The position numbers were made by a program, and so were the translations under genes. The notes below the pieces were generated by a model, which ran no database searches, was not told the DNA's origin, and saw only the letters and a list, made by a program, of their open reading frames with translations. A DNA stretch of 8,498 bases from a bacterium (lineage in GTDB: Bacteria > SM23-81 > DAOVCL01): contig JAOZPP010000078.1 in NCBI GenBank assembly GCA_029932675.1, forward strand, positions 7,222 to 15,719, given 5' to 3'. Below, one piece after another: positions 1 through 8,492 of the stretch. Numbering within the stretch: the stretch's first letter is position 1; each line of letters begins with the position of its first letter.

Positions 1-55
1 TGATTGGCATGCTTAGCTGCTTATTCCTATTGAATGTCTCAATGGGGAGCGGTTT
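1..55 (+). repeat. 55-bp perfect direct repeat in the peptide leaders, copy 1
   Basis: Bases 1-55 are identical to 489-543. They cover most of the signal-peptide coding region of the two small peptide genes. Identity stops abruptly at base 56 (T against C at 544), after which the pre-cleavage region diverges. The repeat begins exactly at the window edge, so its true left end is not visible. Confidence 0.9.
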
Positions 56-230
56 TTTGACTGCCCAGAAGGCAGTAGCTGACGATATGATGCCTTGGAC
101 TAAGCTCTGGCATGCGTTCAGGCGAGTTAGCTCGATCTATGACTATGAGTTTTGGTTTACAGACGAAAATGGAATAAGGCATCTTGTTGTTGTCTGCCAT
201 GGATGGGGATTTACCTGCCTTTTCCATTAG
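1..230 (+). CDS. Small secreted peptide with C-terminal CHGWGFTC motif, copy 1 (5' end outside window)
   Basis: The reading frame is open from the first base. By comparison with the downstream copy, about 10 residues (through M-Q-S-K-I-L-R-V-V-V) lie left of the window, so the ATG at 9 is internal. The full protein would be about 85 aa. A hydrophobic segment (LSCLFLLNVS) is followed by A-V-A, a plausible signal peptidase I site, leaving a mature peptide of about 49 aa that ends CHGWGFTC plus LFH. The Cys-X6-Cys pair near the C-terminus, the S-I-Y-D-Y-E block and N-G-I-x-H are shared with the second copy; the region just after the signal peptide is not. I do not recognise the family. The two cysteines and the nearby thioredoxin-like gene suggest an exported disulfide-containing peptide (inference). 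It could be a signalling peptide, a toxin or a modified peptide precursor. Confidence 0.75.
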   Translation, partial: IGMLSCLFLLNVSMGSGFLTAQKAVADDMMPWTKLWHAFRRVSSIYDYEFWFTDENGIRHLVVVCHGWGFTCLFH

Positions 231-444
231 GTGAGAAAAACCGAGGCGGCACAGCAGTGAGAACTGAATAATTCGGGACCCTGGATAAAAAGAGAACTCT
301 TAGGTGAACCAATCAGCTTCTTCGATCTGGCCGTGACAGAACTTGGTTCTGCCACTTTAGAAGAGAATCTTTTGGTCAGCGGCTACCGATTTCTTGCTTA
401 AGCGTCACATTGTTGATAATTTTCCAGGGTCCCAGGTTAAAGGG
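231..444 (+). other. Intergenic spacer between the tandem peptide genes, bounded by an inverted repeat
   Basis: I see no gene here. An 11-bp perfect inverted repeat (275-285 against 423-433) encloses about 137 bp, and inside it a small hairpin CAGAAC-TTG-GTTCTG lies at 337-351. The arrangement is compatible with a small non-autonomous repeat element or a structured spacer RNA. There are no flanking target duplications that I can see, so mobility is only a possibility. Confidence 0.4.
271..289 (+). repeat. Post-gene direct repeat ATTCGGGACCCTGGATAAA, copy 1
   Basis: This 19-base motif lies 40 bp after the stop of the first peptide gene. It recurs with one change (A to G) at 746-764, 27 bp after the stop of the second peptide gene. 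Its core GGGACCCTGGA (275-285) also occurs inverted at 423-433 (TCCAGGGTCCC), just before the SD of the second peptide gene. It may be the residue of a duplicated gene unit, or a small repeat that travels with these peptide genes. Confidence 0.7.
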
Positions 445-460
445 AAGGAGGTGAGTAAAG

Positions 461-718
461 ATGCAAAGCAAAATCCTTAGAGTGGTAGTGATTGGCATGC
501 TTAGCTGCTTATTCCTATTGAATGTCTCAATGGGGAGCGGTTTCCTTGCCCCGCAAAAGGCCGTTGCCGGGCCGGATGGTTGGTGGATCCATAAACTGCT
601 TCATGCCATTACCGGAGAATATTTCTCAATCTTTGACTATGAATACCTGGTTATAGACCAAAATGGAATAGAGCATTATGTTGTTATTTGCCATGGATGG
701 GGATTCACTTGCTACTGA
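461..718 (+). CDS. Small secreted peptide with C-terminal CHGWGFTC motif, copy 2
   Basis: An 85-aa protein. The start is firm: a full-consensus SD AAGGAGGTGA lies at 445-454, six bases before the ATG. Residues 1-10 (MQSKILRVVV) are the n-region, residues 11-29 are hydrophobic, and A-V-A at 34-36 is a likely signal peptidase I site giving a 49-aa mature peptide starting GPDGWW. The end is V-V-I-CHGWGFTC-Y with a Cys-X6-Cys pair. Compared with copy 1, the leader is identical in DNA, residues about 30-55 vary, and the last 30 residues are conserved (I-F-D-Y-E, D-Q-N-G-I, CHGWGFTC). The gene stands 68 bp before the propeller and redoxin genes on the same strand, likely one transcript. Cys16 in the signal peptide has no proper lipobox. 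Family unrecognised; loosely comparable in size and context to NVEALA peptides of Bacteroides, which I recall from memory only. Confidence 0.85.
   Translation: MQSKILRVVVIGMLSCLFLLNVSMGSGFLAPQKAVAGPDGWWIHKLLHAITGEYFSIFDYEYLVIDQNGIEHYVVICHGWGFTCY
489..543 (+). repeat. 55-bp perfect direct repeat in the peptide leaders, copy 2
   Basis: Identical to bases 1-55. It encodes the hydrophobic core of the signal peptide. The absence of even synonymous differences, next to strongly diverged flanking codons, points to recent duplication or gene conversion limited to the leader. Confidence 0.9.
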
Positions 719-745
719 ACGAAAAGAGGTAGGGTAAATTTAAAC

Positions 746-764
746 ATTCGGGGCCCTGGATAAA
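746..764 (+). repeat. Post-gene direct repeat ATTCGGGGCCCTGGATAAA, copy 2
   Basis: Matches 271-289 at 18 of 19 bases and lies at an equivalent place after a peptide gene stop, just ahead of the SD of the propeller gene. The single change creates a GGGGCCC core containing the palindrome GGGCCC. Confidence 0.7.
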
Positions 765-786
765 CCTAAGAAAGGAGAAGACAAAT

Positions 787-1977
787 ATGAAGACGCTCAA
801 TTTCATTGCGTACCTATCCACAGTAAGTTTTGCCGCAATTCTTATCGGTGGCAGATTTGGATTTTCCCTTGCTGGTTCTAACAACGGCTACCTCGATCAA
901 TCCCCCCTCTTCCAGTCTACCTTCGTCCTGGAAAGGGAGGTAACTCTCAAAAGGGCTGTCGTTTTTTGGGGAATGGCCATTGATAACAAGGATCAAATTT
1001 GGGTTCTATATCTGAATTTTGGCAAGAAAGGGATTATCAAAAACCCTGAGGGAGGAATAGAGATTTTCACTCCCAAAGGAAAGCTCTTTAAAACTATAAA
1101 TTTGATCAAAGAGCCGTCCCTTAATGGCATTTTTGCCAAAGCGGGAAAGATTTACGCCTCTGCTGTAAGCAAGGATAAAGTCTATGTATTCAACCCCCAG
1201 GGAAAGAAAATCCGTGAGATTGAAATAAATCTTCCAATGGGCATCAGGGTAGATAATGATGGTAATTTGTACAAGGGAAGAAGAGAGTGGGTCAAGAGAG
1301 AAAAAAGAAAGGACCGCTACTTCAAGCATCAGAGAGAACTTACCTCGAGAGAGAAAAGCCTTGCGGAGTTAAGGAAAGAGGAAGCGGATATGGACTTCAA
1401 GGAGAAGTCTTTTTACATCCACAAATATGATTCCCTCGGCAACTACATCTGCTCCTTCTTCCCTGTAGAGGGAAAATTCAAGCGGTTACAACTTTACCAG
1501 GGGAGAGTTTATTTGGATATTGACGATGCTGACAATATCTATGCCGTCTGCCCGGTGAGCAAGGGAGTCTACAAGTTCTCACCCTCCGGAGAACTTCTAA
1601 CTGAGTTCACCCAGGTAGGCCCTGAATATAAACCTATTCCTTCCTATTTCGACAATGAAAACCTAAAGGGTAAAGATCGGTGGGAAGTGACCGAGAGATT
1701 CCACTCGGAATGCATCTCCCGTGAAGGGATATTCTGCTGGGATGACTATGTCATTGCTTTGCTCCGCCAGTCAGAAGAAAAAAGAGAAAGATATTTCTAC
1801 GACATCTATGATAGGGAAGGAAATCTCCTCTTGGGAGGGATTGAGTCCTCATATAAGCTTTTGACAATTGACCAGACCGGCCGGTTTTATTTTCTGATCC
1901 CCTCTTCAAGCAAGGGGGTAAGCAGAATTGGGATATTCAGACTCAACTTTAGCCAGAGGAGAAGAGAGGGCCAGTGA
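787..1977 (+). CDS. Exported six-bladed-type beta-propeller protein
   Basis: A 396-aa protein with an SD AAGGAG at 772-777, nine bases before the ATG. Residues about 5-29 form a signal peptide or N-terminal anchor, with possible cleavage after S-L-A at 29; there is no lipobox. The rest carries recurrent propeller strands of the NHL / 6-bladed type: G-M-A-I-D-N-K-D-Q-I-W (62-72), I-F-T-P-K-G-K-L (93-100), V-F-N-P-Q-G-K-K (134-141), G-I-R-V-D-N-D-G-N-L-Y (152-162), Y-D-S-L-G-N-Y (214-220), D-I-D-D-A-D-N-I-Y (244-252), F-S-P-S-G-E-L (264-270), and L-T-I-D-Q-T-G-R-F-Y (359-368). Residues about 165-207 are a very charged, probably helical insertion between strands, unusual for the fold. No catalytic residues are evident. 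It probably binds a ligand or partner in the periplasm or outside the cell. Its stop overlaps the next start, so the two are translationally coupled. Confidence 0.8.
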   Translation: MKTLNFIAYLSTVSFAAILIGGRFGFSLAGSNNGYLDQSPLFQSTFVLEREVTLKRAVVFWGMAIDNKDQIWVLYLNFGKKGIIKNPEGGIEIFTPKGKLFKTINLIKEPSLNGIFAKAGKIYASAVSKDKVYVFNPQGKKIREIEINLPMGIRVDNDGNLYKGRREWVKREKRKDRYFKHQRELTSREKSLAELRKEEADMDFKEKSFYIHKYDSLGNYICSFFPVEGKFKRLQLYQGRVYLDIDDADNIYAVCPVSKGVYKFSPSGELLTEFTQVGPEYKPIPSYFDNENLKGKDRWEVTERFHSECISREGIFCWDDYVIALLRQSEEKRERYFYDIYDREGNLLLGGIESSYKLLTIDQTGRFYFLIPSSSKGVSRIGIFRLNFSQRRREGQ

Positions 1978-2573
1978 TGTTAAGCAAGGACAAAATTTTC
2001 ATAGCCGGATTCATTCTGTTGATCTTTATGAACATAGGGGCACTATATAGAATTTGGGAATTACAAAAGGAGAGGAAGGAATGGCCCTTTATCCTGGATT
2101 TACACCAAAAGCTTGCCTCCGGAAATCTAAAATCATTGACCGGAGAGGAGATAGATTTGACCATACCTGACTCCCTCTTAACTCTGGTGATCTTCTTCTC
2201 GCCTTCAGATTGTGTGGGATGCTTGGAGGAGACCAAGGTATGGGAAAGCTTGCATGAGAAATTTAAGGGGTATGCACTGAAGGTTATTGGGGTAGCAAGC
2301 AGCTATAAACGCAATTCTGTGGAGAGATTTGTTCAAAAAGAGGGTTTGACCTTCCCCATCATATTCGATTATAAGGGGAAACAGACCCGCAAACTCGGCG
2401 TTCTCTTTACCCCTTTTAAGGTGGTCCTGAATCAATGGGGAGGGATCCTCTTTGCTGATCCACCCCATAAAGGAAGTGAAGATCAGGAAAAATTCGGTGA
2501 GATAGTTGAATATCTGGTGCAGAATAGGGAGATGTATTTTGTGGCCGGGCGGTTTGAGCCTTTTCTCAAATAG
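1977..2573 (+). CDS. Membrane-anchored thioredoxin-like (TlpA/redoxin) protein
   Basis: A 198-aa protein from the ATG at 1977, which overlaps the previous stop by one base (TGATG); a GTG at 1974 is an alternative start. GAGAGGG at 1964-1970 serves as SD. Residues about 7-25 form one membrane helix, followed by a charged linker, so the domain probably faces the periplasm. The thioredoxin fold is shown by F-F-S-P-S-D-CVGC-L-E-E with the redox cysteines at 79 and 82, by V-I-G-V-A (103-107), F-P-I-I-F-D (126-131), and the cis-proline loop T-P-F at 145-147. Family members reduce or oxidise disulfides of exported proteins, or mature c-type cytochromes. Nothing here points to cytochromes, so the two-cysteine peptides encoded just upstream are the natural candidate substrate (inference). 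An AhpC-like peroxidase role is less likely because of the CXXC. Confidence 0.82.
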   Translation: MLSKDKIFIAGFILLIFMNIGALYRIWELQKERKEWPFILDLHQKLASGNLKSLTGEEIDLTIPDSLLTLVIFFSPSDCVGCLEETKVWESLHEKFKGYALKVIGVASSYKRNSVERFVQKEGLTFPIIFDYKGKQTRKLGVLFTPFKVVLNQWGGILFADPPHKGSEDQEKFGEIVEYLVQNREMYFVAGRFEPFLK

Positions 2574-2852: not shown

Positions 2853-2883
2853 CTTCTGTAAACTTTTGGAAAGTTTACAGAAG
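2853..2883. repeat. Perfect 13-bp hairpin within the TGTAAAC cluster
   Basis: CTTCTGTAAACTT (2853-2865) and AAGTTTACAGAAG (2871-2883) are exact reverse complements around a 5-base TTGGA loop. No T-run follows directly, so it is not a standard terminator. It could be an operator dyad or an RNA hairpin. Confidence 0.8.
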
Positions 2884-2977
2884 TGTAAACTCCAAATCCA
2901 CCCTTATAACCTCCTGAAAAACTTGAGATTAAAAATGGGAGTTTACACTACAGGCTCTAAGTTAACAGTGGTTTACA
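2857..2977. promoter_or_regulatory. Cluster of five TGTAAAC / GTTTACA heptamers, possible operator array
   Basis: TGTAAAC occurs at 2857-2863 and 2884-2890, and its complement GTTTACA at 2873-2879, 2941-2947 and 2971-2977. The first two lie in the perfect 13-bp hairpin. The third and fourth are arms of an 11-bp inverted repeat (GTGTAAACTCC 2883-2893 and GGAGTTTACAC 2938-2948). The last lies inside a small TTAAC/GTTAA dyad (2962-2982). Clustered dyads of this kind are typical of binding sites for a regulator or replication-type protein. Which protein, if any, cannot be told from sequence. Confidence 0.5.
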
Positions 2978-3027: not shown

Positions 3028-3064
3028 AGGCCACTTGGGGATTAACCTGAGTGGCCTTCTTTTT
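3028..3064 (+). terminator. Rho-independent-like terminator upstream of the sigma-54 promoter
   Basis: AGGCCACT (3028-3035) pairs perfectly with AGTGGCCT (3050-3057) around a 14-base loop and is followed by TCTTTTT (3058-3064). It would stop readthrough just before the downstream promoter. The loop is larger than usual, so its strength is uncertain. Confidence 0.6.
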
Positions 3065-3080
3065 GGCATAGAAATTGCAT
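3064..3080 (+). promoter_or_regulatory. Sigma-54 (RpoN) -24/-12 promoter
   Basis: TGGCATAGAAATTGCAT matches the RpoN consensus TGGCACG-N4-TTGC with exact spacing: GG at 3065-3066 and GC at 3077-3078, 12 bases apart. The only deviations are T and A in place of the C and G that follow TGGCA. The predicted transcript would start near 3090. Such promoters need an AAA+ activator, usually bound upstream; the TGTAAAC cluster, whose sites lie about 110-230 bp before the predicted start, is a possible activator site (inference). Confidence 0.65.
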
Positions 3081-3754: not shown

Positions 3755-4582
3755 ATGAAACAGACAAAAATTCTCTTGGTCCTTCTCCTCCTGGCATTGC
3801 CCTTTAGCTTGGTCCAGGGGCAATATGAGTTTGAGATGCTCTATTGGTTTGGCCCAGCCGGGGGATACCCAGGGGAAAAGGGAGTCAAAATCCCACTCTT
3901 CTATGAGGCCAATCAGGAAGTAGAGGCTTTTAATTTTGAGCTGGAGGTTGACTCTACAAAGTTGAGCTTTGCGGACACCGCTGCCATTAAGGGAGCGCTA
4001 ATAGATTCTATATGCTCAAATCCCTTCCTGTGGGAGGTGGATGTCCAGGGGAATCACCTCTATGTGGGTTGTGTTCTCAGTATGACGGGCGGTATAACCC
4101 TCCCGGCTCAATCAGAGGAGGTGCCTCTTTTTGAAGTAATTCTGGATGTTAATCCGGATCTTATCCCACCCGATTCCACCATCCTGGACATAAAGGATGT
4201 AGGGTGGTGGCCAGTAAGTTGGTATCATGGTATTGATGGCACCTTCTACATCCATAAGGAAGGCTGTAGGGAGCAACCAGGGTATAGCCAACCCCGTCAA
4301 TTTGAGCTGGGACAGAATTGGCCCAATCCCTTCAACCCTACCACAACTATAAATTATGAATTGAGAATTAAGAGTTCCCCCCTCTACACCACCCTGAAGG
4401 TCTACAACATCTTGGGGCAGGAGGTGAGGACATTGGTGGATAAACCACAGAAAGGAGGGAGATATGAGGCAGTGTGGGATGGGAAGAGTAACAATGGGAT
4501 GGATGTAGCATCAGGAGTCTACCTCTATCAGCTTAAGGTAGGAAAGTTCAGTCAGACAAGGAAGATGGTGTTGATCAGGTGA
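3755..4582 (+). CDS. Secreted cohesin-like domain protein with T9SS C-terminal sorting domain
   Basis: A 275-aa protein. The start is fixed by the full SD AAGGAGGTGA (3739-3748), six bases before the ATG. Residues 1-22 are a classical signal peptide with cleavage near V-Q-G. Residues about 35-165 look like a cohesin-type beta-sandwich: K-I-P-L-F-Y (45-50), V-E-A-F-N-F-E-L-E-V-D-S-T-K-L (56-70), L-Y-V-G-C (102-106), and V-P-L-F-E-V-I-L-D-V (123-132). Residues 183-275 are the FlgD-Ig-like sorting domain: FELGQNWPNPFNP, L-K-V-Y-N-I-L-G-Q-E-V, W-D-G, G-V-Y-L-Y-Q-L, ending K-M-V-L-I-R. Cohesin folds bind dockerins or other protein partners, but no dockerin is visible here and this domain often appears alone in exported proteins of these phyla. 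The protein is probably exported and held at the cell surface or released. Its exact role is unknown. Confidence 0.8.
   Translation: MKQTKILLVLLLLALPFSLVQGQYEFEMLYWFGPAGGYPGEKGVKIPLFYEANQEVEAFNFELEVDSTKLSFADTAAIKGALIDSICSNPFLWEVDVQGNHLYVGCVLSMTGGITLPAQSEEVPLFEVILDVNPDLIPPDSTILDIKDVGWWPVSWYHGIDGTFYIHKEGCREQPGYSQPRQFELGQNWPNPFNPTTTINYELRIKSSPLYTTLKVYNILGQEVRTLVDKPQKGGRYEAVWDGKSNNGMDVASGVYLYQLKVGKFSQTRKMVLIR
4352..4380 (+). repeat. Heptamer-repeat insertion inside a sorting domain, copy 1
   Basis: An A+T-rich run of AATTATGAATTGAGAATTAA followed by GAGTTCCCC, built from diverged GAATTAA-type heptamers. It encodes N-Y-E-L-R-I-K-S-S-P. The same DNA recurs in the next two sorting domains (6041-6069 and 7588-7616). 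Confidence 0.6.
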
Positions 4583-4588
4583 AGAGGC

Positions 4589-4682
4589 CGTAGATCGTTG
4601 TTCGTCTATCGTAGATCGGGGCATCTGTCAGGGCAGGAGCCTTGACAGCACCTGAAATGCGTCAGAATCGGGGTTCTGACGC
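4589..4682. repeat. Intergenic repeat block: short direct repeat plus two hairpins
   Basis: CGTAGATCG occurs at 4589-4597 and 4610-4618. Two hairpins follow: CTGTCAGGG/CCTTGACAG (4625-4633 with 4640-4648, one G-T pair, 6-base loop) and GCGTCAGAA/TTCTGACGC (4659-4667 with 4674-4682, perfect 9 bp, 6-base loop). Their spacing and similar size resemble a REP-type pair. The second resembles the CAGAAC/GTTCTG hairpin at 337-351. There is no strong T-run, so termination is unlikely to be the main role. Confidence 0.55.
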
Positions 4683-4747
4683 CTCTGTGGGAACCTCGTT
4701 GGATGGTGGATTCAAAGAACTTTTTAGAAAAAGAAGGGGGAATGAGA

Positions 4748-6283
4748 ATGAGATGGTTTGGCCTCTTGGGGGTGCTGGTGGTTTTTGGCTGGGCGAGTTC
4801 CCTGGCTCAGGACATCTCCTTTGGCCCCAGCATCAAGGTCAATGATGATACCACCACCAGGAACCAGTTGTCTCCTTCCTTGGCTGTGGACAGGGAGGGC
4901 AACCTCTACCTGTCCTGGCAGGACCTGAGGAATTTAGACATCACCGGGAGGGGGAACATCTACTTCTCCTCATCCTTTGATGGGGGCAGGACCTGGGCGA
5001 AGAACAGGATGATAGACCCGGACAGGGGCACCCCCAGCGATCCCCATCTGGCCTGTGATAGCTCAGGTAACATCTACTTTGTCTGGGCTGATGAGCCTAA
5101 GGGGGAGATCTACTTCTCTATGTCCTGTGATAAGGGGACAACCTGGACCCAGGCAGTGAGGGTTGATGATGGTCTCCATAGCTCATACGGCCCAGCCTTA
5201 GCTGTGGATGATAAGGGATGGATCTATGTAGTCTGGAGTGATACCAGGGAGGATTGGGATATCTATTTTTCTATGTCCACAGATGCGGGGACCACTTGGA
5301 CTCCCAATGTGAGGGTAAACTACCCACCTTCCAATCTTCAGTTGGCGAGTGACATAGCTGTGGATAAGAAGGGAGTTATCTATGTGGTCTGGTTAGATTT
5401 CCGGAGTGGGGTGAAATGGGATCTGTATTTCTCCAAGTCTGCAGATGCTGGCTCTACCTGGTCTCTGAGCAAGAAAGTGAACAATGATGATATTAACGGA
5501 AGCATAGCAAATGATCCCTCCCTGGTGGTAGACAGCAATGGTGGTTTATATGTAGTTTGGACCTATCAAGGCAATCATACGACAGGCGTCTATTTCTCTC
5601 GCTCTGGGAATGGGGGATGGAGCTGGACAAGGACGGTGAAGGTGAACACAGATTCCATATACCAATACTCAGATCCCTGCCTGAGCATTGATGCCCAGGG
5701 CAGGCTCTATATTGCGTGGCATGCTCTGGCGGTATACCCTGACTCCTTCCATATCTACTTTTCTATGTCCCAGGACAGTGGTAGAACCTGGCTTAGTCCC
5801 AATATTCAGGTAGATGAGATGGATTGGGGGGCTCTGCGACCTTCGCTTGGAGCAATAAAGAATGGTGAGCTTTACATAGCCTGGGATGAAGTAAAGGATT
5901 CCAGAGGTGGAGCTGACATCTACTTCTCCTCAGACACCGTCTTTAGTGGGATAGAGGAGTGGAGGGAGAATCCCGTGGTGATAAAGGACTTTGAGCTGGG
6001 ACAGAACTGGCCCAATCCCTTCAACCCCACCACAATTATTAATTATGAATTGAGAATTAAGAATTCCCCTGTCCGCACCACCCTGAAGGTCTACAACATC
6101 TTAGGGCAGGAGGTGAAAACTTTAGTTAGCGAGGAGCAAAGGGCAGGGAGCTATGAGGTGATCTGGGATGGAAGGGATAACCGGGGCAAGCCAGTGGCCA
6201 GTGGGGTGTACTTCTACAGGTTAGAAGTTAAAGGTGATGGGTTAAAGGCAACGAGGACAAAGAAGCTGGTGTTACTGAGATAA
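4748..6283 (+). CDS. Secreted seven-repeat BNR/Asp-box beta-propeller protein with T9SS sorting domain, copy 1
   Basis: A 511-aa protein from the ATG at 4748, seven bases after GAAGGGGG (4733-4740); the ATG at 4742 is an alternative, and the one at 4703 would place a charged stretch before the signal peptide. Residues 1-22 are a signal peptide (cleavage near L-A-Q). Then come seven repeats of about 50-60 aa, each with S-x-A-V-D-x-x-G-x-x-Y-V-V-W and I-Y-F-S strands. Asp-boxes S-x-D-x-G-x-T-W are seen in repeats 1-4 and 6 (SSFDGGRTW, MSCDKGTTW, MSTDAGTTW, KSADAGSTW, MSQDSGRTW); repeat 5 is degenerate (SGNGGWSW) and repeat 7 lacks one. The fold is sialidase-like, but I see no arginine-triad context proving sialidase activity, so a binding or structural role is as likely. 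Residues 415-511 form the FlgD-Ig/T9SS tail. The stop is 17 bp before the next start. Confidence 0.85.
   Translation: MRWFGLLGVLVVFGWASSLAQDISFGPSIKVNDDTTTRNQLSPSLAVDREGNLYLSWQDLRNLDITGRGNIYFSSSFDGGRTWAKNRMIDPDRGTPSDPHLACDSSGNIYFVWADEPKGEIYFSMSCDKGTTWTQAVRVDDGLHSSYGPALAVDDKGWIYVVWSDTREDWDIYFSMSTDAGTTWTPNVRVNYPPSNLQLASDIAVDKKGVIYVVWLDFRSGVKWDLYFSKSADAGSTWSLSKKVNNDDINGSIANDPSLVVDSNGGLYVVWTYQGNHTTGVYFSRSGNGGWSWTRTVKVNTDSIYQYSDPCLSIDAQGRLYIAWHALAVYPDSFHIYFSMSQDSGRTWLSPNIQVDEMDWGALRPSLGAIKNGELYIAWDEVKDSRGGADIYFSSDTVFSGIEEWRENPVVIKDFELGQNWPNPFNPTTIINYELRIKNSPVRTTLKVYNILGQEVKTLVSEEQRAGSYEVIWDGRDNRGKPVASGVYFYRLEVKGDGLKATRTKKLVLLR
6041..6069 (+). repeat. Heptamer-repeat insertion inside a sorting domain, copy 2
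   Basis: AATTATGAATTGAGAATTAA followed by GAATTCCCC, encoding N-Y-E-L-R-I-K-N-S-P. It differs from the 4352 copy at one base and from the 7588 copy at one base. Confidence 0.6.
6227..6273 (+). repeat. 47-bp identical 3' coding segment, copy 1
   Basis: Bases 6227-6273 equal 7774-7820 exactly. They encode the last residues of the sorting domain (V-K-G-D-G-L-K-A-T-R-T-K-K-L-V). The propeller parts of the two genes are far less similar in DNA, so the tail has been homogenised or recently copied. Confidence 0.85.
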
Positions 6284-6300
6284 TAAGGAGGGTAGGTAAG

Positions 6301-7830
6301 ATGAGAGGGTTGAAATTAGGATTTTTGATGGCTTTTATCTTAGGGGTCTTTTTATGGTCAGGAATGCTTTTAGCTCAGGATGCGAGCTTTGGGCCAAGTA
6401 TCAGGGTGGATGATGCTGATACAAGCAGTTGGGGTTGTTTTTCTCCGACACTGGCAGTGGATAGGAATGGCAACATCTATGTAGCCTGGCAAGACGGGAG
6501 GAAGAATCAAGGTTGGGACATCTATTTTTCCAGTTCCTTTGATGGAGGAACAACCTGGAGCAAAAATGTAATGGTAAGCGATAAAATCGAGCCACCCATT
6601 CCGACCCTCTCTCTAGAGGTTGATGCTAAGGGCAATCTTTACTTAGTCTGGGAAGATATGGGAACGGGCAATGTTTATTTTTCTATGTCCCGAGATAGTG
6701 GGAAAAGTTGGACTTCAGAAATACAGGTGAATGATTGGGGACACTGCTCAGCTAAAATGTCCCCCTCTTTAGCTGTGGATGATACTGGGATTACCTATGT
6801 AACCTGGGCAGATGACAGGTGGGGCCCAATGTTTCCTGGCATCTGCTTTTCAATGTCTACCAATGCTGGGACAACGTGGGTTCCTAATGTATGGGTAATA
6901 GAGCCCAACGATGTAGCTCATTGTCTTTCTTCTATTGCCCTCGATAGGCAAGGAAATATCTATGTGGTCTGGGTTGACAGCATCACACTTTTCAGTGCCG
7001 ATATCTACTTTTCTAAGTCTATCGATGGTGGGAAGAGATGGTCCCCAAAGATCAAGGTGAATAATGTTCCTGGAGGAATCTCATTCTATCCCTCTATAGC
7101 CATAGATAAAGGTGGCATCATCTATGTTGTTTGGCAGTATGAATTCAGAGACGTTTACCTTGGCAGATCCACCGATGGTGGCATAACTTGGAATGACCCC
7201 AGCATCAAGGTAAACAATGATAGTTTAAGCGCCAACGATGCTCAACCCCAGATTGATGTAGATGACAAGGGTAAGTTGTATGTGGTCTGGGATGCGGCTT
7301 CCCAAATTCTATTTGCTATGTCCAGTGATAGTGGTAGGACCTGGAGTGATCCGAGTATAAGGGTTGATGATAGCACTTTGTTTCTCTCTGCGGATCCGTG
7401 CCTTGATCTTGGGCCAGATGGGATCTACGTTGCCTTCAGAAGCCAAAAACAGACAGGTGCGCCTCACGTCTACTTTACCAAAGGTTCGCTAACTGGTATT
7501 AAGGAGGAGCCGGGGGATGGGTATCAGATATTGGATTACAGGCTTAAGCAAAACTGGCCGAATCCGTTTAATGCAACCACAATCATTAATTATGAATTAA
7601 GAATTAAGAATTCCCCCATCCACACCATCCTGAAGATTTACAACATCCTGGGGCAAGAGGTGAAAACTTTAGTTAGCGAAGAGCAAAGAGGAGGGAGCTA
7701 TGAGGTAACCTGGGATGGAAGGGATAACACTGGTAGCCCTGTGGCGAGTGGGCTATATCTCTGTAGGTTAGAGGTTAAAGGTGATGGGTTAAAGGCAACG
7801 AGGACAAAGAAGCTGGTGTTGCTCAGGTGA
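6301..7830 (+). CDS. Secreted seven-repeat BNR/Asp-box beta-propeller protein with T9SS sorting domain, copy 2
   Basis: A 509-aa protein; SD AAGGAGGG (6285-6292) lies eight bases before the ATG. Residues 1-25 are a signal peptide (cleavage near L-L-A-Q), followed by D-A-S-F-G-P-S-I-R-V-D-D, matching the mature start of its upstream paralogue. Seven propeller repeats follow with Asp-boxes SSFDGGTTW, MSRDSGKSW, MSTNAGTTW, KSIDGGKRW, RSTDGGITW and MSSDSGRTW; the seventh has none. Residues 413-509 are the T9SS tail with the variant NPFNA in place of NPFNP. Repeat number matches the paralogue, so this is a whole-gene tandem duplication; the propeller has diverged while the tail DNA stays near-identical. 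Both are likely co-transcribed and exported to the surface or medium. No enzyme activity can be assigned from visible residues. Confidence 0.85.
   Translation: MRGLKLGFLMAFILGVFLWSGMLLAQDASFGPSIRVDDADTSSWGCFSPTLAVDRNGNIYVAWQDGRKNQGWDIYFSSSFDGGTTWSKNVMVSDKIEPPIPTLSLEVDAKGNLYLVWEDMGTGNVYFSMSRDSGKSWTSEIQVNDWGHCSAKMSPSLAVDDTGITYVTWADDRWGPMFPGICFSMSTNAGTTWVPNVWVIEPNDVAHCLSSIALDRQGNIYVVWVDSITLFSADIYFSKSIDGGKRWSPKIKVNNVPGGISFYPSIAIDKGGIIYVVWQYEFRDVYLGRSTDGGITWNDPSIKVNNDSLSANDAQPQIDVDDKGKLYVVWDAASQILFAMSSDSGRTWSDPSIRVDDSTLFLSADPCLDLGPDGIYVAFRSQKQTGAPHVYFTKGSLTGIKEEPGDGYQILDYRLKQNWPNPFNATTIINYELRIKNSPIHTILKIYNILGQEVKTLVSEEQRGGSYEVTWDGRDNTGSPVASGLYLCRLEVKGDGLKATRTKKLVLLR
7588..7616 (+). repeat. Heptamer-repeat insertion inside a sorting domain, copy 3
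   Basis: AATTATGAATTAAGAATTAA followed by GAATTCCCC. Here the heptamer GAATTAA is clearest: two full copies plus a partial third (GAATT, then CCCC). It encodes N-Y-E-L-R-I-K-N-S-P in the same frame as the other two copies. Confidence 0.6.
7774..7820 (+). repeat. 47-bp identical 3' coding segment, copy 2
   Basis: Exact copy of 6227-6273 at the end of the second propeller gene. Further blocks upstream in the two sorting domains (for example the GAGGTGAAAACTTTAGTTAG run at 6111-6130 and its counterpart) are also identical. Confidence 0.85.
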
Positions 7831-8036: not shown

Positions 8037-8492
8037 ATGAAAGCTTTGAGAAATTTCTTCATGATCTCCTCGGTTCTTTTGGCTATTCTTGTTTTAGCCG
8101 GAGGAGATGCTTCTGCTATAGTGCAGAAAAGCCTGACATATAGCCAGTCTCAGCTTTCTTTCAGCCATATTGAGGGCTATGACTTCGTCTCCTTGCCTGG
8201 CTGTATCCATATGGGAGCTCCTGGAGAGCCATCTCTACCGGTGAGGACTCTCCGGTTTGCCATCCCTAGGGATACCCGGGTAGCTGGTTTCCACATAACC
8301 GCTCTTGATTCCGAGGAAGTTCCGGGGACCTATCTTATCTATCCGGTTCAGGAACCAATAATCTTTGACGGTTCCCCCCCGCCGGATTTCGTCCCTCCGG
8401 ATACATCGATCTATAACTCCTCGGAGCCTTTCCCCGGGGTGGTCTTAACCCAACTTTCGCTCTTTGAAAAAATTTTCCTTGTTTTTCAATGA
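8037..8492 (+). pseudogene. Truncated gingipain-type (peptidase C25) precursor, N-terminal part only
   Basis: SD AAGGAG (8026-8031) lies five bases before the ATG. Residues 1-27 are a signal peptide (cleavage near A-S-A). Residues about 28-136 match the pattern of the C25 propeptide / N-terminal region: G-A-P-G-E-P-S-L-P-V-R-T-L-R-F-A-I-P (60-77), V-P-G-T-Y-L-I-Y-P-V-Q (95-105), P-P-P-D-F-V-P-P-D (114-122), and S-E-P-F-P-G-V-V (129-136). Family members usually continue for many hundreds of residues with His and Cys catalytic residues and often a T9SS tail. Here the frame goes on for 15 unrelated codons and stops with TGA at 8490-8492. The break at about 8444 coincides with a switch to A+T-rich sequence, suggesting disruption by an insertion. 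A frameshift or assembly junction is the alternative. The peptidase domain itself is not in the window. Confidence 0.65.

Follow-up and report, generated by a model that had tools for sequence, protein, structure and literature searches.

A recurring gene set of C-x6-C peptides, a six-bladed propeller and a redoxin, with a layout akin to NVEALA

Peptide, propeller and redoxin genes of the window

The window analysed here is a stretch of 8,498 nucleotides (G000:C76:7222-15719, contig JAOZPP010000078.1) from a bacterial assembly of 3.03 Mb that is 97% complete; the comparison collection contains four genomes of the source phylum. The subject of this work is a set of genes in the 5' part of the window, which carries on the plus strand, in this order, two genes for small peptides (peptide 1 at 3..230 and peptide 2 at 461..718), a gene for an exported beta-propeller (787..1977) and a gene for a membrane-anchored redoxin (1977..2573). 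The first-pass annotation had described the peptides as tandem paralogs with signal peptides and a common C-x6-C end (two cysteines separated by six residues), followed on the same strand by an exported propeller and, overlapping it by one base, a membrane protein with a CVGC motif. This description is upheld, with ATG 1977 as the start of the redoxin.

Base 1 of the window directly abuts the 3' edge of a scaffold gap of 100 N (L004 7122-7221), so that the start codon of peptide 1 is hidden and 75 of its residues are visible; peptide 2 has 85 residues. Both copies are part of a tandem duplication, which also takes in a 59-nt repeat upstream of each gene (389..447, plus strand, 98% identical to the copy at L004 7063-7121 upstream of peptide 1). 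The two proteins are 67% identical, with residues 11-29 of the hydrophobic leader and the motif CHGWGFTC identical in both, and end in CHGWGFTCLFH (peptide 1) and CHGWGFTCY (peptide 2). Codon comparison of copy 1 with copy 2 gave nonsynonymous (dN) and synonymous (dS) divergences of 0.05 and 0.68 for the leader (dN/dS ~0.08), 0.41 and 1.17 for the core (~0.35), and 0.14 and 0.79 for the C-terminal 13 codons (~0.18); at the protein level, purifying selection thus acts on both of them. The leaders end in QKAVA|D in peptide 1 and QKAVA|G in peptide 2, and in INKAES and similar sequences in the relatives from genome G012 (see below). The mature part would probably begin with DDMMPW after AVA in peptide 1, and the likely cleavage site of peptide 2 is AVA|GP.

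The hidden Markov model (HMM) search from both peptides proposed by the first-pass annotation yielded no convincing homologue: in 386 genomes it returned the window peptides themselves and one marginal match in G055 (E 0.009), dismissed as it sits in an unrelated region. Scans of viral contigs and genome contigs and a plasmid search with the window peptide gave no matches, and HMM and pattern searches with the peptide alone found nothing convincing, i.e. no homologue of the peptide is detectable by sequence search.

For the propeller (396 residues), Pfam reported nothing but a sub-threshold SGL match, and the protein falls below the curated cut-off of DUF5128 (PF17170). The structural model (pLDDT, the predicted local distance difference test score, 72) has a six-bladed, NHL-like fold, and its best PDB matches (VIA Z scores) are NHL propellers (Brat NHL, Z 21.8) and the Bacteroides proteins DUF4221 (3s9j, Z 21.0) and BF0058 (4raa, Z 18.4).

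The redoxin may start at ATG 1977 or at GTG 1974 and ends at 2573. Its N-terminus carries a hydrophobic segment, and the Pfam analysis of 1974-2573 assigned it to AhpC-TSA/Redoxin (4e-12, 46.5 bits vs a cut-off of 26); the protein contains the CVGC motif. Its profile is closest to structures of the ResA/StoA/DsbE type, and it resembles the ResA/StoA/TlpA-type oxidoreductases in the membrane anchor, the thioredoxin fold, a CxxC followed by Glu and a cis-Pro TP (TPFK). However, its family exhibits DCxxC followed by conserved E and W (alignment A6) rather than WCxxC, and the window protein scores far below the curated NCBIfam cut-offs for ResA and DsbE (31.4 vs 170 and 17.4 vs 123, respectively). 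When the redoxin profile was iterated it began to collect multihaem cytochromes, and it was dropped. The redoxin and propeller genes overlap at the stop codon of the latter, hence the two are probably translationally coupled; an overlap of a few bases is found in the window and in G491, G012b, G286, G428 and G444.

Recurrence of the gene set in other bacteria

Searches with the window propeller identified homologues in G012 and G286, and a search of the phylum of G012 added G491, G428 and G444; a scan of genome contigs with the propeller returned only G491 (Candidatus Zixiibacteriota, JAOZNS010000103.1). In both G012 and G491 the gene directly before the propeller encodes a small exported peptide, and the one directly after it a CxxC redoxin; a single G012 locus lacks the latter. 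The G286 propeller reaches the curated PF17170 cut-off, and we therefore collected the DUF5128 loci of the 386 genomes. This survey added modules in G218 (two), G255 (two), G289 and G082, the propellers of G218 and G289 exceeding the cut-off. The modules of G286, G444, G077 and G530 are partly visible, with a contig end on one side. Generic NHL propellers of G089, G122, G162 and G016, as well as most of the A7 matches whose loci were checked for a redoxin, were set aside as they occur in unrelated contexts; so was L135, which has a ResA-like neighbour but no peptide and appears to represent another system.

The peptide of G491 has VICHGNGFDC where those of the window have VICHGWGFTC. The other relatives carry CDGFFTNC, CQIGGANC and CPSDAVTC (three loci of G012), CPVDKGSC within CNC-PVDKGS-CIC (G428), CPVLAGDC within CAC-PVLAGD-CVC (G077), CPVLYGDC within CSCPVLYGDCYC (G530), CFPPPGDC and CYAPPGDC (G218), CFPGGSSC (G255) and CEAGSNSC (G289). 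The motif CHGWGFTC, singled out by the first-pass annotation, is thus local to the window in its literal form; what is common is the C-x6-C near the C-terminus and the order of leader, variable middle and Cys pair. G255 (L146 2267-5830) has two tandem peptide-propeller-redoxin modules and a third propeller, and one of its peptides exhibits C-x7-C.

Association was counted with a fixed filter, i.e. a small open reading frame with a hydrophobic N-terminus and C-x6-C directly upstream of a gene. Of the 13 propellers followed by a CxxC protein, 9 were positive vs 3 of the 66 lacking one (Fisher P 6.5e-7, a guide value); the remaining genes of these loci gave 1 positive in 183, which is itself part of a propeller module. 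The first-pass annotation had named propeller-redoxin pairs that normally lack such peptides as an observation that would speak against a system; this check did not refute it, as with a relaxed C-x2-12-C filter an exported Cys peptide was found at 11 of the 13 redoxin-linked propellers vs 4 of the 66 others (and at 5 of the 183 other genes). The C-x6-C spacing occurs in 15 of 18 peptides vs 2.8 expected on shuffling, and in 9 of 11 when one peptide per genome is taken and the window is left out (P ~1e-6, likewise a guide). The neighbours in distant lineages support the set as a recurring unit, and we consider with high confidence that peptide, propeller and redoxin form a genuine conserved module.

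An alternative would be that the redoxin and the propeller serve general periplasmic housekeeping and that the peptide has nothing to do with them and stays next to them by chance, in line with the fact that most of the surveyed DUF5128/NHL propellers lack both a peptide and a redoxin directly downstream. However, the survey counts already contradict it: in distant lineages peptide and redoxin are strongly associated next to one propeller clade, with the same Cys spacing. We regard this alternative as highly improbable.

Possible function and relation to NVEALA and Mau systems

The best overall explanation, to which we assign a probability of roughly 0.5, is an exported-peptide module in which the disulfide of the peptide would be set by the redoxin and the peptide would be docked on the propeller. 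As judged from the sequences, the peptide genes would encode short precursors with a hydrophobic leader. In the window peptides and those most closely related to them, this leader is probably cut at an A-x-A located some 36-43 residues from the N-terminus, leaving a mature peptide of about 30-50 residues with a single conserved C-x6-C loop, most likely a disulfide; an exported disulfide peptide is a fairly probable prediction. We lean, somewhat less firmly, towards the membrane-anchored redoxin acting on it, most likely by forming, breaking or proof-reading the disulfide outside the cytoplasm. For the exported propeller the odds appear even that it binds the peptide, most likely as its partner, carrier or receptor.

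Several points weigh against this explanation. In NVEALA, as in the peptides of the window and of its nearest relatives, the A-x-A lies well beyond the hydrophobic stretch, at a distance exceeding that of textbook Sec signal peptides, so that cleavage could require a special peptidase or may not happen. The peptide model is of low confidence (pLDDT 62), with a leader helix, a strand-rich C-terminus and nothing further interpretable, and the G012c locus has a peptide and a propeller without a redoxin. As to the statistics, the loci are related by descent and homology to the window is how several of them were identified, redoxin-linked members served as seeds of the propeller profile, and the peptides of G428 and G077 were first noticed in a screen for C-x6-C, which inflates the spacing statistic for those two.

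NVEALA (PF14055) is a curated family of Bacteroidota peptides for which, to our knowledge, no function is known. The first-pass annotation had placed these peptides in the vicinity of six-bladed propellers and redoxins, and rightly so as regards such propellers and a CxxC protein: a tblastn search identified a Phocaeicola massiliensis plasmid (OY726023.1, L163) on which peptide genes alternate with propeller genes in an array, together with a CTSC protein, and Pfam assigned two of the peptides to NVEALA and one propeller to DUF5128. The propellers of this array are six-bladed lipoproteins, and signal-peptidase-like genes, recognised by eye, accompany them, which suggests a dedicated leader peptidase. 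NVEALA/DUF5128 clusters and the window have the same layout, in which the gene of a six-bladed propeller comes right after that of a small exported Cys peptide, and they share a CxxC protein in the cluster and a long leader with a hydrophobic stretch followed by A-x-A at residue ~36-43; the PF17170 cut-off is exceeded by the homologues in G286, G218 and G289 and not by the window propeller itself. However, PF14055 matched neither the window peptides nor the scanned relatives nor, at E<=0.01, anything in the whole genome, and the window peptides do not carry the NVEALA motif or a close variant at the leader end. NVEALA peptides have variable Cys spacing, whereas C-x6-C is mostly fixed in the window type, and the redoxin gene overlaps the propeller gene in the window, whereas the Phocaeicola CTSC protein instead carries DUF1573. 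The hhalign comparison of the window-type leader with NVEALA gave a probability of 4 and a score of 18.2 vs a maximum of 16.2 in 60 block-shuffled controls, and direct homology of the leaders could not be established. The window thus looks like a distant variant of the NVEALA-type layout, which would work like an NVEALA-type module, but it cannot be filed as NVEALA because its peptides do not match the NVEALA model.

In methylamine dehydrogenase MauA is a small disulfide-rich chain, MauB is a propeller, and MauD and MauE serve maturation. In G347 and G531 a MauE gene (PF07291) adjoins a Cys peptide and a propeller (L171 4963-5397 and 7442-7876; L170 3429-3851). The likeness extends to a small disulfide-bearing chain, a propeller partner and thiol-disulfide proteins, and the peptide might accordingly be regarded as a structural subunit of a propeller complex, as MauA is to MauB, with the redoxin and MauE-like proteins as maturation factors and with no release as a signal or weapon. 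The gene content in outline and the nearly 1:1 pairing of peptides and propellers in the L171 and L163 arrays would agree with this. However, the Pfam families of the Mau light and heavy chains matched neither the window propeller, nor the peptides, nor the scanned relatives, the window propeller is modelled as a six-bladed NHL type, and the peptide alignment A9 shows no conserved Trp pair such as a tryptophan tryptophylquinone cofactor would need. The middle part varies between peptides, and some peptide duplications (window, L171) are not accompanied by an additional propeller. We regard a Mau-like subunit as unlikely. The MauE genes of G347 and G531 also agree with the preferred exported-peptide module: MauE and MauD have been noted in putative clusters for ribosomally synthesized and post-translationally modified peptides (RiPPs) with Cys-rich precursors, where disulfide formation by MauE has been a matter of speculation (PMC7794033).

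In G218, G082 and G347 the modules are followed by RND-HlyD-RND genes (L171 4963-16932, L172 1874-16133, L174 5511-15748; the second RND gene and the HlyD gene of G218 and G082 were recognised by eye), and the transporter they encode is a candidate exporter. The peptide could then be an exported toxin, bacteriocin or signal, with the propeller as immunity protein or receptor, as would also fit the constant leaders with variable cores, known from many bacterial peptide families, and the tandem peptide-propeller arrays in Phocaeicola. However, RND-HlyD-RND genes were, like MauE, not seen in the stretches read near the window, G491 and G012 modules, and no exporter, bacteriocin peptidase or modification enzyme was recognised there; the peptides tested do not match known bacteriocin or RiPP families, and dN/dS of the core is below 1. 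We find this somewhat less plausible still than the Mau-like subunit and prefer the module of peptide, redoxin and propeller set out above.

The layout points to a widespread, functionally unexplained peptide system akin in arrangement to NVEALA, and the module links peptides, propellers and redox proteins of the MauE type, which are now annotated separately. We tentatively suggest, as a reading rather short of even odds, a phylum-crossing, undescribed system in which exported C-x6-C peptides would receive their disulfide from a dedicated redoxin (together with MauE in some lineages) and a six-bladed propeller dedicated to them would display or sense them, NVEALA of gut Bacteroidota being one branch of the same functional kind. 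The literature searched, a corpus with subscription journals mostly outside its coverage, contained no mention of NVEALA or DUF5128 and no description of this gene set. The three-gene minimal version found in Zixiibacteriota and other lineages, with its NVEALA-like layout, mostly fixed Cys spacing and overlap of redoxin and propeller genes, makes peptide-propeller binding and redoxin-dependent disulfide formation testable.

Regulation and neighbouring genes

Upstream of the window, L004 3640-6456 encodes a sigma-54 activator that combines TPR repeats with a DNA-binding domain of the Fis type. The peptide operon is preceded by a TGTAAAC/GTTTACA enhancer-like array (L004 6713-6746) and a -24/-12 promoter-like site (TGGCACGGAATTTGCGA at L004 6924, about 300 bases 5' of the window), and a second set, with the array at 2857..2890 and the promoter-like TGGCATAGAAATTGCAT at 3064..3080, both on the plus strand, precedes the next operon, which encodes BNR/FlgD-Ig proteins. 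With up to three mismatches allowed, the array occurs at only these two places in the 3.03-Mb genome. From its position, the activator probably regulates the peptide operon, and in the window it would probably switch on the peptide operon and the BNR/FlgD-Ig operon together. Upstream of the peptides of the relatives no sigma-54 sites were found except for a lower-scoring one in G428, the scan covering 68 bases for two of the G012 loci; as far as scanned, sigma-54 regulation is local to the window.

The next operon, with the same type of promoter and enhancer (window 3755-7830), encodes an exported protein of the FlgD-Ig type and, in tandem, two BNR-propeller proteins that have FlgD-Ig C-termini. 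It is followed at 8037-8492 by an open reading frame with a Propeptide_C25 domain (gingipain-type propeptide), which stops shortly before the end of the contig and might be a truncated peptidase gene. On the upstream side of the activator gene, L004 1250-2563 encodes a protein of the MASE9-HD-GYP type.

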